DNA of 64,000 bases from Edaphocola flava (GTDB taxonomy: Bacteria > Bacteroidota > Bacteroidia > Chitinophagales > Chitinophagaceae), in contig NZ_SAIQ01000001.1 in NCBI RefSeq assembly GCF_004118155.1, forward strand, positions 558,001 through 622,000. The letters run 5' to 3'. Below are positions 3,590 to 9,763 of this stretch, in pieces. The notes under the pieces are model-generated. The model did no database searches and was not told the DNA's origin. It saw only the letters and a program-made list of their open reading frames with translations. The position numbers and the translations under genes were made by a program. Numbering within the stretch: the stretch's first letter is position 1; the number at the start of each line of letters is the position of its first letter.

Positions 3590-3639
3590 CCTGATAAAAA
3601 AATGGGTTGAGCGCTTGCTCAACCCATTTTTTTATCAGG
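3590..3639. terminator. Bidirectional terminator between convergent genes
   Basis: A perfect 23-bp inverted repeat with a 4-nt loop (GCTT). The arms carry A7 on one side and T7 on the other, so it can terminate both the beta-helix gene (+) and the isoaspartyl peptidase gene (-), whose stop codon lies within it. Confidence 0.92.
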
Positions 3640-4480
3640 AAAATACTTCTGTATCGATCCCGTCAAAACTGGCATACACCATGCTGGGGTGCGAGTCCTG
3701 GTGGTATATATTACCGGCGGCATCGATTGCGATCGCTCCGGCAAAACCATCGTACGGTTTTAATTCTTCAAATGTGCGGGCAAAGGCCTCTTTAATATGC
3801 ATACCATCTGTAACCCGGGTCACAATTTTGGATGCTACAGCACCACTGACGATATCCTCTCCTACTCCGGTACAACTTACCCCGCAAAAAGCATTGGCAT
3901 AATTGCCTGCCACTGTTGCCGAATCGGAAATACGGCCGGGTATTTCAAAACCCTTACCGCCTGTTGAAGTTGCTGCGGCTATGCGACCGGCTGCATCTAA
4001 AACCACACAGCCTACTGTTCCGGTACCTGTAGAGGCCGTTTTTGCTTCATATTCTGCTCTGCGTTGCGGAATCTCGGTATCGAATTCCTCATAACCATGT
4101 GCGCGTGCATAACTGGTAGCTCCTGAGCCTCCCAGAATACGGTCATCTTCACCTTGCAGGTCCAGTGCCACTTTGATCGGGTTTTTCACCGCTTCAATAT
4201 TAATGACCCCACTCATTTTCTGTGTAGTGCCATCCATCACCGCGGCGCTCATCCTGATCTTACCATCACGCTGTATCTGCGATCCGATCCCGGCATTGAA
4301 CAAAGCATCATCTTCCAGCAGGCTAACGGCATATACTACTGTTTCTGTAGCAGTATGTCCCGATGCCATATACTGGTAGGCCTTTTGTGCAATTGCTGTC
4401 AGTGCATCCTGCTTGGCTTTCTTGGTAGCTGCACTAGTTGACGATTCTGAAAAGAAACCGCCATGTATGATTACTTTCAT
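3635..4480 (-). CDS. iaaA: Isoaspartyl peptidase / plant-type L-asparaginase
   Basis: An N-terminal-nucleophile hydrolase of the type 2 asparaginase family, which splits beta-aspartyl dipeptides and L-asparagine. The precursor is normally cut autocatalytically before a Thr. The expected site is Thr155 in TGTGTVGCVV, preceded by the usual flexible linker. GIGSQIQRDGKIRMSAAVMDG (residues ~64-84) corresponds to the conserved N-terminal substrate region, and GTGTVG starts the beta subunit. It lies 3 nt after the cyanophycinase gene in one operon. In that setting its likely substrate is beta-Asp-Arg, the dipeptide released from cyanophycin, giving free Asp and Arg. The substrate is inferred from context; the family is clear. 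Confidence 0.9.
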   Translation of the reverse strand: MKVIIHGGFFSESSTSAATKKAKQDALTAIAQKAYQYMASGHTATETVVYAVSLLEDDALFNAGIGSQIQRDGKIRMSAAVMDGTTQKMSGVINIEAVKNPIKVALDLQGEDDRILGGSGATSYARAHGYEEFDTEIPQRRAEYEAKTASTGTGTVGCVVLDAAGRIAAATSTGGKGFEIPGRISDSATVAGNYANAFCGVSCTGVGEDIVSGAVASKIVTRVTDGMHIKEAFARTFEELKPYDGFAGAIAIDAAGNIYHQDSHPSMVYASFDGIDTEVFS

Positions 4481-4483
4481 TGC

Positions 4484-5392
4484 TTAATTATTATCTACCC
4501 CAAACTTGCCAATAGAGGTATATTGTGAAGAGTGTATGAAGAGGCGACGTGTCTCCAGGTCATAGGTATCAAACATGCTCATGACATGCGTCACCAGGTG
4601 ATTGATAGAGATGGGCTGACCCAGGTCTACGCTGGTCAGGTTGGTATCTTTAATCTCGTTGCCATCTACCAGTATCACCAGGCCGGAACCCAGTGCTTCC
4701 ATTTGTTTATTGTTCTTGATCAGCAGGCCGGTATCTTCTCCCAATCCTATGCCCAGCACCCATGGGTTACCCACTACTGCCTGGAATAAGCGACCGATAC
4801 GGCCTCTTTCCACGAAATGGGTATCAATGATCACATCATCGATAAGCCCCAGTCCGCCGGTCATTTTTACCTCGCCTTTAAGCATTGCTTCAGTGCTGGA
4901 TCCCTGGTAGATCATATTGTCTGATGCTGCAGCTGCACCGGCTGAGGTACCGGCATATAAAAATTCTTCTGTACGGTATTTTTTGAGTAATAGCCTGTGG
5001 AATTGTGTGCCTCCGAGAATGGAAGATAAACGCAGCTGATCACCACCGGTAAACAGTACTACATCTGCTTTTTCGAGGCGGCTGATCACTTCGGGATCAT
5101 TCGCATTTTCCCGTGTAAGGATATTCAGCACACCAGTATTTTTAGCATTCAGGTATTCAAACGTGCGTACATATTCCGCACCAACCTCACCCGGAATCTG
5201 AGAAGCCGTAGGTACAATCTCGATACGGGAATCTTCACCGTGTTTAGATTCTTTGATAATACGCTTCAGAATGCCTCTTTCAAAAAAATTGAGGTTATTC
5301 GCTACATTCTCGTCGTAGCTGACTTCTGTAAAACTGCCCTTGTTCACTGCACCACCTATGATCACTAGTTTTCCCACAACATCTCCGTCCAT
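4484..5392 (-). CDS. cphB: Cyanophycinase
   Basis: A serine exopeptidase of the S51 family that releases beta-Asp-Arg dipeptides from cyanophycin granules. The 302-aa protein carries GKLVIIGGAVNKG at its start, LFTGGDQLRL near residue 115, the nucleophile-elbow Ser150 in YAGTSAGAAA, and IDTHFVERGRIGR, all hallmarks of cyanophycinases. ATG 5392 (MDGDVVGKLV) is preferred over the upstream in-frame ATG at 5455. The first 21 extra residues are not conserved in type, and a -7 promoter box lies between the two starts. It is followed after 3 nt by the isoaspartyl peptidase and is divergent from cyanophycin synthetase, so synthesis and breakdown genes sit back to back. Confidence 0.93.
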   Translation of the reverse strand: MDGDVVGKLVIIGGAVNKGSFTEVSYDENVANNLNFFERGILKRIIKESKHGEDSRIEIVPTASQIPGEVGAEYVRTFEYLNAKNTGVLNILTRENANDPEVISRLEKADVVLFTGGDQLRLSSILGGTQFHRLLLKKYRTEEFLYAGTSAGAAAASDNMIYQGSSTEAMLKGEVKMTGGLGLIDDVIIDTHFVERGRIGRLFQAVVGNPWVLGIGLGEDTGLLIKNNKQMEALGSGLVILVDGNEIKDTNLTSVDLGQPISINHLVTHVMSMFDTYDLETRRLFIHSSQYTSIGKFGVDNN

Positions 5393-5423
5393 TAATTTTA
5401 CTATTTTATCATTTACAATGAAA

Positions 5424-5431
5424 CAAATGTA
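5424..5431 (-). promoter_or_regulatory. Candidate -7 box of the cphB-iaaA operon
   Basis: On the minus strand the sequence reads TACATTTG, matching TAnnTTTG, 32 nt before the chosen cphB ATG. No TTTG at the expected 19-21 nt spacing was found, so the -33 part is weak. Confidence 0.4.
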
Positions 5432-5612
5432 TAAAATATTTCCAAACTGGTACATACCAAAAGGCCCTTAAAACACAAATCAGCCTTCTTTAACCAACAG
5501 TAAACAAGTTCCTGTAACATACCCGTCACAAACTATTTTGCATTTGTATATAAAAAAAACTTTAACTTGGAAGGGATATTAAAAGCAGTTCCCTTTAAAC
5601 ATAGTTTCCTAA

Positions 5613-8243
5613 ATGAAAATCTTGAAAATACAAGCCCTGAGAGGCCCAAATATATGGAGCATCAGAAGAACCAAACTCATACAGATGAGGCTTGATCTTG
5701 AAGAGCTGGAGCAACAACCGACGAACCTGATACCGGGATTCCGGGAGCGAATAGAAACCATGTTTCCTACCATGATCAGCCATCGCTGTTCTGAAGGTGT
5801 AGAAGGTGGTTTTTTCTATCGGGTAGAAAAAGGCACCTGGATGGGCCATGTCATTGAGCACATTGCACTGGAGATCCAAACCCTTGCGGGCATGGAGACA
5901 GGCTTTGGCCGTACACGCCAGACCAAAACGGATGGTATATACAATGTAGTGTTCAGTTATATAGAAGAGAATGTAGGTCTGTATGCTGCCGAAAGTGCAG
6001 TGCGCATTGCCGAAGCCCTTATTACAGATACCCCTTATGATGTCGAGGCAGACATTATGGAAATGCGCCGCATCCGTGAGCGGGTACGTCTGGGCCCAAG
6101 TACTGCCAGCATTGTGGAAGAGGCTGTTGCCAGAGACATCCCCTGGATAAGACTGGGCACCAACTCGCTGATCCAGCTGGGTTACGGCATCAACCAGATG
6201 CGCTTCCAGGCCACCATTACCTGTAAGACCAGCAATATAGCGGTAGATATCGCCTGTAATAAGGAAGAGACCAAACGAATGCTGGATATGGCCTCCATAC
6301 CGGTTGCGAAAGGAAGTATCTGTGTTGATGAGGAAGGCCTGAAACAGATTATAGATCAGATTGGTTTTCCGATCGTGTTAAAACCATTGAATGGTAATCA
6401 TGGCAAAGGCGCTTCTATTAATGTAATGAATTGGGAAGATGCGGCCTCCGGCCTGGTACATGCACAGCAATACAGCCGTAAGGTTATTGTAGAAAGATTC
6501 ATTACCGGTCATGACTTCCGCGTGCTGGTGATAGATAACAAAGTGGTCGCTGCGGCCCGCAGGGAACCGGCACACGTTATCGGAGATGGGAGCAGTAGCA
6601 TACAGCAACTGATTGACCTCACCAACCAGGACCCGCGCCGTGGCTACGGACACGAGAATGTATTGACCGAGATTACGGTAGACCGTGACACCGAAGACAT
6701 CCTGGCTAAAAGGGAATACAACCTGGATTCCATACCCCAGAAAGGTGAAATTGTGCCCCTGAAATCTACAGCCAACCTGAGCACCGGTGGTACTTCTGTT
6801 GATGTAACGGAAATGATGCACCCGGAAAATATTTTCTTATGCGAACGCATATCCCGTGTTATTGGACTGGATGTATGTGGTATTGACATCATGGCTCAGA
6901 ACCTGACCCAGCCGCTGAAAGAGAGCGGTGGTGCAATTCTGGAAGTGAATGCGGCACCGGGTTTCCGTATGCACCTGGCGCCATCGGAAGGTTTACCGCG
7001 CAATGTAGCGGCACCGATCATAGATATGCTCTACCCTCCGGGTAAGCCCAGCCGTATTCCTATTATTGCCGTAACGGGTACCAATGGTAAAACGACGACT
7101 ACCCGACTGATCGCACATATCATTAAAAACAACGGTTACAAAGTCGGATTCACAACATCAGATGGTATCTACATACAGAACCATATGATGGAGAAAGGGG
7201 ACACAACCGGACCGCTGAGTGCTGAATATATTCTTAAAGATCCTACGGTAGAGTTTGCGGTACTGGAGGCTGCCCGTGGTGGTATACTCCGCGCAGGGCT
7301 TGGATTTAGCCGCTGCGACATCGGGGTGATCACTAATATACAGGAAGACCACCTGGGCCTTAATGATATTGAAACACTGAAGGATCTCGCCAATGTAAAA
7401 ATGGTGGTGGCCCGCAGCATCAGAAAAGATGGCTGGGCCATCCTGAATGCAGAGGATGAGATGTGTGTGAAAGTAGCCAAGGAACTGGATTGTAATATTG
7501 CTTATTTCAGCATGACCGAAGACACTCCTTTTGTACAGAAACTGGCGAAAGAAGGTAAAATTGTGGCCGTATACGAAAACGGTTATATAACGATCAAAAA
7601 AGGCTCCTGGAAGATAAGGGTGGAAAAAGCCAGCCTGGTGCCACTGACCATGGGCGGCAAGGCGCGGTTTATGATAGCCAATGCACTGGCGGCTACACTG
7701 GCGGCTTATCTATGGGGCTTTAAAACGGAAGACATCAGCCTGTCATTACAGACTTTTATACCAGGTGCGGCTCAGACTCCGGGCCGTATGAATATTTTTG
7801 AATTTAAACGCTTCAAGGTCCTGATCGATTTTGCACATAATCCTGCAGGGTATCGGGGTATTGAAGAGTTTATGCAGAATATTGATGCCAGCCGTAAGAT
7901 CGGTATTATTGCCGGTGTGGGCGACCGCAGGGACGAAGACATCAGGGAGTGTGCGAAGATTGCGGCAAGGATGTTTGACCACATTATTATACGCCAGGAG
8001 AAACACCTGAGGGGCAGACAGGAGGAGGAAATTCTGCAACTGCTGCTGGAGGGTATAAATGATTCCGGCAGAACAGTAACCTGGGAAACCATTCCTAAAG
8101 AGATAGAGGCCCTGAAACATGCGATCAGCATTGCACAGGACGGCACTTATATTGTAGCCTTAAGCGATGTGATCACCAATGCGATACAGGTAGTACAACA
8201 ATACCTGGACAAGGAAAATGAAGAAGACATTATTCTATCATAA
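5613..8243 (+). CDS. cphA: Cyanophycin synthetase (CphA1 type)
   Basis: Makes the nitrogen-storage polymer multi-L-arginyl-poly-L-aspartate from Asp and Arg using ATP. The 876-aa protein has the full three-part layout. The N domain (~1-160) has the HRCSEGVEGG and GTWMGHVIEHIALEIQ motifs. An ATP-grasp domain (~200-470) contains PLNGNHGKGASINV and ILEVNAAPGFRMH. A Mur-ligase-like domain (~480-876) has the P-loop GTNGKTTTT at residues 489-497, followed by LEAARGG and DFAHNPAGYRGIEEF. Length and motifs fit the primer-dependent CphA1 enzymes. The start at 5613 gives the usual MKILKIQALRGPNIWS opening. It is divergent from cphB-iaaA across ~220 bp and ends in its own terminator. Confidence 0.96.
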   Translation: MKILKIQALRGPNIWSIRRTKLIQMRLDLEELEQQPTNLIPGFRERIETMFPTMISHRCSEGVEGGFFYRVEKGTWMGHVIEHIALEIQTLAGMETGFGRTRQTKTDGIYNVVFSYIEENVGLYAAESAVRIAEALITDTPYDVEADIMEMRRIRERVRLGPSTASIVEEAVARDIPWIRLGTNSLIQLGYGINQMRFQATITCKTSNIAVDIACNKEETKRMLDMASIPVAKGSICVDEEGLKQIIDQIGFPIVLKPLNGNHGKGASINVMNWEDAASGLVHAQQYSRKVIVERFITGHDFRVLVIDNKVVAAARREPAHVIGDGSSSIQQLIDLTNQDPRRGYGHENVLTEITVDRDTEDILAKREYNLDSIPQKGEIVPLKSTANLSTGGTSVDVTEMMHPENIFLCERISRVIGLDVCGIDIMAQNLTQPLKESGGAILEVNAAPGFRMHLAPSEGLPRNVAAPIIDMLYPPGKPSRIPIIAVTGTNGKTTTTRLIAHIIKNNGYKVGFTTSDGIYIQNHMMEKGDTTGPLSAEYILKDPTVEFAVLEAARGGILRAGLGFSRCDIGVITNIQEDHLGLNDIETLKDLANVKMVVARSIRKDGWAILNAEDEMCVKVAKELDCNIAYFSMTEDTPFVQKLAKEGKIVAVYENGYITIKKGSWKIRVEKASLVPLTMGGKARFMIANALAATLAAYLWGFKTEDISLSLQTFIPGAAQTPGRMNIFEFKRFKVLIDFAHNPAGYRGIEEFMQNIDASRKIGIIAGVGDRRDEDIRECAKIAARMFDHIIIRQEKHLRGRQEEEILQLLLEGINDSGRTVTWETIPKEIEALKHAISIAQDGTYIVALSDVITNAIQVVQQYLDKENEEDIILS

Positions 8244-8287: not shown

Positions 8288-8548
8288 TTAATCATTATTG
8301 CTCTTAGGTGCCAATGCTGTTACACGCTGGTAACGGAAGATTACGATCCCGATCAGGGCAACAATACCGCTCATTCCGGCAATTAAGATGTCTTGGGTAA
8401 ACAGGAACGAGAGTGCCGCTACCATGCCTTCTGCAAAGATGCAGGCCATAACATGGCGAAAGCGCCACATATACACATCATATCCTTTCTCTCCGACACG
8501 CTTACCCAGAAAATAAGTGGATAATATTATTATTAAAAGATCTATCAT
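8288..8548 (-). CDS. Small inner-membrane protein, 86 aa
   Basis: Function not recognised. It has about two to three hydrophobic segments: residues ~1-14 (MIDLLIIILSTYFLG), ~31-50 (HVMACIFAEGMVAALSFLF) and ~52-70 (DILIAGMSGIVALIGIVIFR). They are separated by a basic loop (YMWRFRHV), and a short polar tail ends in PKSNND. It starts 3 nt after the stop of the DegT-fold sugar enzyme, so the two are surely co-transcribed. A role alongside sugar or envelope metabolism is only a guess from position. Confidence 0.7.
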   Translation of the reverse strand: MIDLLIIILSTYFLGKRVGEKGYDVYMWRFRHVMACIFAEGMVAALSFLFTQDILIAGMSGIVALIGIVIFRYQRVTALAPKSNND

Positions 8549-8551
8549 TTT

Positions 8552-9763
8552 TTACTTTACATATTGACTCATAAAGGCCGTAATACTTTCTTTCATATGG
8601 TCGATCTGCATGGCATCCAGACCATGGTGACAAGCGATCAACATACCGCCACGCATTACTTTATCGGCCTCAGGATAACCTGCTGCGCTGGCTTTATGTG
8701 CTACATTTTTAAATCCTGGCTGACGCAGAATATTACCGGTAAATACGGTACGCGTCTGGATATTTCTTTTCTCCAGGAAGATCTGCAGATCTCTGCGGAT
8801 GAAAGGAGCATTTTCTCTTACCGTAACAGCAAATGCCAGCCATCCTGTACGGGAATCCGGTAACTGCTGTGGCAGGATAAAGAACTCTTCGTATTGCTCG
8901 AAGAAGCTGCGCATCGTTGTATAATTAGCAGTACGCTTATCTATATTATCGCCCAGTTTATTTACCTGGATCAGACCGAATGCAGCACCCAGTTCTGAAG
9001 GTTCAATGTTGTAACCTGGCTCTTCGAATACAAATTTTGCATCGTAAGGGATACCGTCTACTTCTACATTGAAACGGTTTTCGATTTTCTCTGATTCTAC
9101 GAACAGGGAAGAACTGCGTCCCCAGCTTCTCAGCAGGCGACCACGATCATAAAAGGCATCTGTATTCACACACAGCATACCACCGTTACCGGCACAGTTT
9201 ACAATATGAGAACCATAGAAACTTGTTGTGCTCATATCGGTATAACGACCGCTGGATGCACCTCCAATCTCAGCACCTAAAGTATCAGCACTGTCTTCCA
9301 GTACAAACAGGTTATGTTTGTCTGCAATCTCACGCAACACTTTCCAGTCCGGCAGGTTACCGATCAGGTTAGGGATGATCATTGCTTTGGTTTTAGAAGT
9401 AATCATTTCTTCTACCTTAGACACATCTGTATTATAAGTACCCTCAGCCACATCAACAAAAGACGGAATCCATCCTTTCTTAACGATTGGCGCTACCGTC
9501 GTGGAAAAAGTCAGAGCAGGAGTAAGTATCTCCGCACCGGCTTCAAAGTTCAGCAGATCAGCTGCCAGGTATAAAGCAGATGAACCCGAGTTTACACCAA
9601 TACCATATTTTTTTGCATAAAGCCCTGCCACTCTTTCTTCCAGCGCACGTACATTTTTACCCATTTGTGTAGAGGTCTTTAAGACTTCTACTACCGCATC
9701 GATTTCTTCCTGACCATGAACCGTCTTACCATAAGGTACATGAGGATACTGATTGGTACTCAT
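8552..9763 (-). CDS. DegT-fold sugar dehydratase-like protein (PLP lysine replaced by His)
   Basis: A 403-aa member of the DegT/DnrJ/EryC1/StrS fold, which acts on nucleotide sugars with PLP or PMP. Fold markers are GVNSGSSALYLAADLL (~57-72), LTPALTFSTTVAPIV (~80-94) and VLEDSADTLGAEIGG (~154-168). Aminotransferases of this family have a Schiff-base Lys in SFxxxK. Here the motif is SFYGSHIVNCAGNGG with His186 at that place. This Lys-to-His change is the known mark of the dehydratases RfbH/E1 (CDP-4-keto-6-deoxyglucose 3-dehydrase) and ColD, which remove the C3 hydroxyl using PMP. EDSADTLG also resembles RfbH more than the usual EDAAHA. No [2Fe-2S] reductase partner or other deoxysugar genes are nearby. 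The exact substrate is unknown. Confidence 0.8.
   Translation of the reverse strand: MSTNQYPHVPYGKTVHGQEEIDAVVEVLKTSTQMGKNVRALEERVAGLYAKKYGIGVNSGSSALYLAADLLNFEAGAEILTPALTFSTTVAPIVKKGWIPSFVDVAEGTYNTDVSKVEEMITSKTKAMIIPNLIGNLPDWKVLREIADKHNLFVLEDSADTLGAEIGGASSGRYTDMSTTSFYGSHIVNCAGNGGMLCVNTDAFYDRGRLLRSWGRSSSLFVESEKIENRFNVEVDGIPYDAKFVFEEPGYNIEPSELGAAFGLIQVNKLGDNIDKRTANYTTMRSFFEQYEEFFILPQQLPDSRTGWLAFAVTVRENAPFIRRDLQIFLEKRNIQTRTVFTGNILRQPGFKNVAHKASAAGYPEADKVMRGGMLIACHHGLDAMQIDHMKESITAFMSQYVK

Follow-up and report, generated by a model that had tools for sequence, protein, structure and literature searches.

A candidate Fe-S-free 3-dehydratase of the DegT fold in Edaphocola flava and its scattered CDP-deoxysugar pathway

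The gene at positions 8552-9763 (minus strand) of the window, i.e. the whole stretch of 64,000 nucleotides of Edaphocola flava DNA that was analyzed, is predicted to encode a DegT-fold His-type NDP-4-keto-6-deoxyhexose 3-dehydratase of 403 aa, denoted here as DegT-H. The enzyme very probably strips one oxygen from a CDP-bound sugar, with partners encoded elsewhere in the genome. It is read here, with a probability of roughly 0.7, as a CDP-4-keto-6-deoxy-D-glucose 3-dehydratase that belongs to an Fe-S-free clade sister to E1/RfbH and follows the glutamate-driven, reductase-free chemistry of ColD. Despite missing the cofactor of E1, DegT-H may catalyze the same reaction as that enzyme; since it harbors no [2Fe-2S] ligands, a different and simpler chemistry than that of the known enzyme is probable.

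The gene, its product and the active-site histidine

The open reading frame (ORF) is complete, running from an ATG at 9763 to a stop at 8552 on the minus strand. On the opposite strand, stops interrupt the one frame that was translated, and the plus-strand ORFs listed within 8552-9763 do not exceed 99 aa. Chance is ruled out, as orthologs at 78-100% identity are present in 26 of the 147 genomes of the family sample. Conservation of the protein is high (87% mean column identity, 35 sequences).

DegT-H matches the Pfam family DegT_DnrJ_EryC1 with 243 bits. Among the NCBIfam models, RfbH (NF011936) ranks first, scoring 292 bits and thus below its cut-off of 423. The closest solved structures are those of E1 (PDB 3bcx, E=4.7e-57) and ColD. 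E1 comes first by sequence and by fold (profile search; Foldseek) and ColD is the next 3-dehydratase, with two sugar transaminases standing between them in the Foldseek ranking. E1, also denoted as AscC or RfbH, is the CDP-4-keto-6-deoxyglucose 3-dehydrase and shares with DegT-H the DegT fold and a His at the Lys position; the two proteins are 31% identical, differ in length (437 aa in E1, 403 aa in DegT-H), and only E1 carries the Fe-S cysteines. ColD, the GDP-4-keto-6-deoxymannose 3-dehydratase (PDB 2gms, 3b8x), is likewise of the His type and free of an Fe-S cluster, but shows 26% identity, falls into a separate clade and is found in a GDP instead of a CDP context. The predicted structure of DegT-H has a mean pLDDT of 67.6 and is weak at the active-site loop, values falling under 50 for residues 179-194 and 210-252; due to these low values it was not used for placing His186 or the Fe-S loop.

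The original prediction held that His186 takes the place of the Schiff-base Lys in a DegT fold, and that the protein is akin to the His-type 3-dehydratases RfbH/E1 and ColD rather than to ordinary aminotransferases. Alignment and tree bear out both points. His186, whose codon is at 9206-9208 (minus strand), sits within TSFYGSHIVNCAGNGG, and a His occupies the Schiff-base Lys column in all 82 aligned orthologous sequences as well as in a 56-57% identical relative. The other DegT proteins detected in this genome, three in number, carry Lys in that column; in two of these Lys enzymes SF(Y/F) and the Gly pair are as far apart as in DegT-H, and the third requires a one-residue gap. DegT-H thus does not possess the trait of DegT sugar aminotransferases, a Lys that forms the internal aldimine. 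No other Lys was found to take over this role, and the protein does not cluster with the aminotransferases.

Iron-sulfur ligand columns and the position of the clade

The cluster ligands of E1 are C193, C251, C253 and C261, and the E1 chain (PDB 3bcx) has a Cys at each of these numbers. The four corresponding columns hold Cys in 20 of 20 E1-type rows (18 of them distinct) and A, S, L and I in all 14 rows of the DegT-H clade. By alignment, the equivalent of E1 Cys193 is Ala159 (codon at 9287-9289), the loop of Cys251 and Cys253 corresponds to residues 217-221 (SSSLF, codons at 9101-9115), and the equivalent of Cys261 is Ile227 (codon at 9083-9085), all on the minus strand. The SSSLF loop, including Ser218 and Leu220, and Ile227 are invariant across the 35 sequences of alignment A1, and the first ligand column shows Ala in 80 and Cys in two of the 82 orthologous sequences. 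Of the four columns, the ColD chain has a Cys in the first only. As all four Fe-S cysteines are missing, DegT-H is no member of the E1/RfbH group by the cofactor that defines it.

According to PMC8987622, four cysteines hold the [2Fe-2S] cluster of E1, and two chemistries are distinguished for C3 deoxygenation, a hydrolytic one represented by ColD (GDP) and a reductive, Fe-S-dependent one represented by E1 (CDP) and SpnQ (dTDP). The same review describes the chemistry of ColD as glutamate-driven (PMC8987622). Together with excerpts of PMC10440746, it outlines a common course for His-type enzymes, which start from PMP and expel the C3 hydroxyl before hydrolysis or reduction; glutamate is the amino donor of the hydrolyzing members ColD and GDP-heptose C3-dehydratase (PMC8987622, PMC10440746).

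A phylogeny with RfbH, ColD and aminotransferases, proposed earlier as a check, set the DegT-H clade apart from all three. In a tree of 50 rows, separate groups were formed by three Lys aminotransferases, the ColD relatives (support 100/97), the Fe-S E1 enzymes (16 rows, 100/96) and the DegT-H clade (28 rows, 100/99), and the latter two are sisters at 96/88. This tree omits seven rows of an intermediate set, which in turn had omitted nine rows of a smaller tree; in the smaller one, ColD, with its long branches, was joined weakly (84/20) to the DegT-H clade. With the Lys enzymes as outgroup, the tree is most simply explained if E1 gained the Fe-S site once, but the site may instead have been lost in the DegT-H clade.

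Kinship to E1 leaves room for an enzyme of the E1 type that works on the same CDP substrate and keeps the reductive chemistry, with electrons supplied by another protein such as a PaaE-like reductase. This is unlikely. In its favor, the genomic company of DegT-H is that of E1 and its clade is the sister of E1, and in the genome of the window a PaaE-like flavin/Fe-S reductase (414 bits, just below its cut-off of 420.8) is encoded about 2.3 kb ahead of the RmlC-like gene. However, the ligand columns described above speak against it, and no flavin/Fe-S reductase was seen among the ORFs and annotations of six compact clusters from relatives (L166, L249, L252, L340, L341, L345).

Pathway partners in the genome and in relatives

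The same genome also carries, in scattered form, the genes for the remaining steps of a CDP-3,6-dideoxyhexose pathway, namely rfbF, rfbG and those of an RmlC-like epimerase and of an RmlD-like reductase. The genes for glucose-1-phosphate cytidylyltransferase (rfbF) and CDP-glucose 4,6-dehydratase (rfbG) are adjacent (G000:C1:449.7-451.5 kb), about 115 kb from the DegT-H gene, which is on that contig too (566.6-567.8 kb). The epimerase gene is found at C8:254144-254662 and the reductase gene at C10:260328-261185. RfbF (356 bits), RfbG (421) and RmlC (164) score over their curated cut-offs, and the RmlD-like reductase (182 bits) stays under the rmlD cut-off of 224. E1/RfbH keeps the same company of rfbF and rfbG, and in the ascarylose route RmlC-like and reductase genes accompany E1. 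The original prediction had seen a gene outside any deoxysugar cluster with a small membrane protein as its only partner. Locally the first statement stands, since no sugar genes adjoin DegT-H in the window; on the scale of the genome it does not, as a CDP-deoxysugar pathway is dispersed there, and relatives have it next to the gene. With the four partner genes in the same genome, the second statement is not supported.

Given these partners, their linkage to the gene in relatives and the lack of gmd, the substrate is most likely CDP-4-keto-6-deoxyglucose and not a GDP sugar. The earlier suggestion had included GDP-linked substrates; gmd was not found in the genome of the window, which disfavors this alternative, and a ColD/GDP route was discarded as the leading idea on the same ground. 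That DegT-H is a GDP-4-keto-6-deoxymannose 3-dehydratase of the ColD type in a colitose-like pathway is highly improbable. ColD shares the His and the freedom from Fe-S, and an archaeal ColD-like relative adjoins gmd; against this, 11 of 26 carrier genomes, that of the window included, lack gmd, the ColD rows form their own clade, and the linkage of DegT-H is to rfbF and rfbG. A search of the phylum with ColD as query gave matches in 14 of 198 genomes, and the ten loci that it returned all encode the E1-type His-His motif together with CxCx7C.

Co-occurrence was assessed in 54 genomes, i.e. 26 carriers, 24 non-carriers and four set apart (G156, G017, G138, G099); the counts come from one family and are phylogenetically non-independent, and the queries for RmlC and the reductase were taken from carriers. 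CDP-glucose 4,6-dehydratase was present in 26/26 carriers and in 4/24 non-carriers (G004, G006, G007, G015). A close RmlC was found in all 26 carriers (at least 49% identity) and in none of the 24 non-carriers (at most 40%). For the RmlD-like reductase, the corresponding numbers are 25/26 (at least 56%) and 0/24 (at most 36%); the one carrier without a close reductase is G117, and the reductase of G082 is a piece at a contig edge. The gmd gene was detected in 15/26 carriers and 20/24 non-carriers. One of the genomes set apart, G099, harbors no close DegT-H relative and encodes a complete Fe-S RfbH (above the cut-off with 710 bits, Cys motif present) along with the 4,6-dehydratase, a close RmlC (59%) and a close reductase (57%), likewise dispersed. 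Judged from this one genome and its set of partners, Fe-S RfbH and DegT-H appear to fill the same pathway slot.

This pathway context also bears on the idea that DegT-H carries out another PMP-dependent reaction on a CDP sugar, such as C4 amination or epimerization, with the His tuning the cofactor. SpnQ transaminates when provided with PLP and glutamate, according to the extract of PMC8987622, and a methyltransferase gene adjoins the enzyme gene in alphaproteobacterial clusters, so that product fates differ. Nevertheless, such a reaction is quite unlikely, since the co-encoded epimerase and reductase require a C4 ketone, the three Lys-bearing DegT proteins of the genome can cover amination, and an Fe-S E1 seems to occupy the same slot in G099.

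In other families of the class, 13 of 19 loci have all four partners beside the gene (L243, L244, L247, L249-L257, L259). The reductase alone is adjacent in L246 and L258, and four loci of family f95 show no partner on the stretch examined. Within the window's own family, the full linked set occurs in two of 80 loci (L042 and L104; best 80 of 304), a count based on flanks of at most 8 kb with many loci ending at contig edges, and additionally in G032; in L042, rfbF runs off the end of the examined stretch. In G156 three of the four partners are linked and the reductase is located elsewhere. As the partners are linked to the gene in relatives, the scattered arrangement around the gene of the window is probably a derived condition. 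In 10 of the 13 full other-family loci, a GT2 glycosyltransferase gene lies no more than 500 bases from rfbF; such a gene also lies next to rfbF in G156 and near the enzyme gene in 13 of the best 80 of 304 loci, and none was seen on the examined stretches of the window's own genome. This glycosyltransferase is likely the user of the sugar in the relatives.

On alphaproteobacterial plasmids, annotation or tblastn showed rfbF and rfbG, in this order, directly ahead of the DegT-H gene in five of five loci examined. In the three annotated ones (L340, L341, L345), genes for a class I methyltransferase, an NAD(P)-dependent oxidoreductase and a GT2 glycosyltransferase follow, and the methyltransferase of the Palleronia plasmid (L340) shows sugar C-methyltransferase domains. 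This gene order suggests C-methylated 3-deoxy CDP-sugars. In other Bacteroidota, an acetolactate-synthase-like thiamine enzyme is encoded beside Fe-S E1 genes (L126:10060-11889, L130:5264-7054), which points to branched-chain sugars at these two loci, presumably yersiniose-like ones.

Carriers in the window's family, as named among the best 80 of 304 loci, include Edaphocola aurantiacus (100% identity), Taibaiella and Flavipsychrobacter. Five further genomes of the family sample encode only a relative of 32-34% identity, and the three of these that were read (G017, G099, G138) are of the E1 type; two carriers, G026 and G062, hold a more distant relative in addition, that of G062 being E1-type. 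Among the 395 genomes of the class sample, 19 besides the window's own, from four other families, encode a relative at 63-79% identity. In two order-wide samples, a close relative was confined to members of the family and to G156, a genome from a different family (57%), and in the phylum sample (296 genomes) to the window's own genome. Copies of about 60-64% identity are present on 23 alphaproteobacterial plasmid records (Palleronia, Ensifer, Sinorhizobium, Roseibium/Labrenzia, Leisingera). The relatives from Rhodococcus and Embleya (44-48% identity) showed no rfbF or rfbG within the approximately 15 kb read, so that members of the clade may use different substrates.

Viral contigs carry relatives as well, which share the His motif and are 38-48% identical. 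The IMG/VR contigs L260-L276 and L292 represent a sibling lineage with motifs such as SFYASHIIT, in which no CxCx7C was found. On L261, the enzyme gene is preceded by a tryptophan-halogenase-like gene and followed by phage families of unknown function. The viral contigs L280, L304 and L333 encode His-His proteins of the E1 type whose CxC motif is spaced differently. Copies of 79-81% identity in two metagenome-assembled genomes labeled Azovibrio restrictus and Phycisphaerales bacterium (L089, L096) look like misbinning or mislabeling.

The small membrane protein of 86 aa is encoded by an ORF at 8288-8548 (minus strand) that begins 3 nt downstream of the DegT-H stop, as had been reported from the sequence. 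It has no NCBIfam match, and an identity as a known transporter was dismissed after four proteins tried gave no Pfam family at cut-off. It is a recurrent, fast-evolving neighbor, present in 58 of the best 80 of 304 loci, a number that sums clusters 1, 30, 44 and 107, which are united by a common pattern rather than clear identity, and some of the remaining loci end at contig edges. Conservation is poor (33% mean column identity, 29 sequences). Its profile matches beside the DegT-H gene in 12 of 15 carrier genomes searched, and it scores elsewhere too, including in four of 19 non-carrier genomes, e.g. G017. The other neighbors in the window, among them cyanophycin genes and an aldehyde dehydrogenase, are retained only in the closest relatives; a kinship with them was rejected, as this context is common, in part, only to L034-L037 among the best 80 of 304 loci. 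Positions 3635-8243 of the window hold a likely cyanophycin set of a cyanophycin-synthetase-like protein (876 aa), an S51 peptidase and an isoaspartyl peptidase, the last assigned by eye.

Proposed reaction and its meaning

In the preferred reading, L-glutamate would convert PLP to PMP, which would condense with CDP-4-keto-6-deoxyglucose at the C4 ketone to give a Schiff base. By homology to E1 and ColD, His186 would remove the C4' proton, with expulsion of the C3 hydroxyl. The resulting 3,4-ene intermediate would not be reduced through a [2Fe-2S] cluster of the enzyme itself, as the ligands are absent. It would instead be hydrolyzed as in ColD, yielding PLP, ammonia and CDP-4-keto-3,6-dideoxyhexose, although the absence of Fe-S is in itself no proof of hydrolysis. 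The RmlC-like epimerase and the RmlD-like reductase could then produce a CDP-3,6-dideoxy-L-hexose, e.g. CDP-ascarylose, ascarylose being a first guess. The scattered yet conserved genes may, again as a guess, belong to a glycan that stays constant, unlike a variable O-antigen.

Two Campylobacter jejuni pathways offer a comparison. In serotype HS:5, the excerpts of PMC10440746 describe a glutamate-dependent, PLP-only C3-dehydratase, followed by a C5-epimerase and a C4-reductase, which was shown on GDP-heptoses; the order of reactions (4,6-dehydratase, C3-dehydratase, C5-epimerase, C4-reductase) is the one proposed for the DegT-H route, with GDP-heptose as the substrate in HS:5. That C3-dehydratase is 62-67% identical to the two characterized GDP-type C3-dehydratases of E. 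coli O55:H7 and Y. pseudotuberculosis IVA (PMC10440746). The CDP-6-deoxy-L-altrose pathway of HS:41 has CDP-glucose, the 4,6-dehydratase, a 3,5-epimerase and the C4-reductase in common with the DegT-H route and, unlike it, proceeds without a C3-dehydratase as far as the extract of PMC12369002 describes it. No published description of an Fe-S-free E1-type enzyme appeared among the matches listed (title, start of abstract and hit terms) in a search that left most subscription literature outside.

On balance, it seems probable that DegT-H represents a clade of iron-free CDP-4-keto-6-deoxyglucose 3-dehydratases with ColD-like hydrolysis, found in Bacteroidota and Alphaproteobacteria and, more distantly, in Actinomycetota and on viral contigs, and that whole CDP-3,6-dideoxysugar pathways operate without a [2Fe-2S] enzyme or its reductase partner. 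If this is true, E1 has a natural sister that does without Fe-S in a CDP pathway; substrate and chemistry would then not be tied to each other, and the evolutionary order, i.e. whether Fe-S was gained once in E1 or lost here, would become testable. Genes labeled just as DegT-type or class I/II-fold aminotransferases, like those on the three annotated alphaproteobacterial plasmids, could then be renamed, and a reductase-free route to CDP-3,6-dideoxyhexoses would be available.
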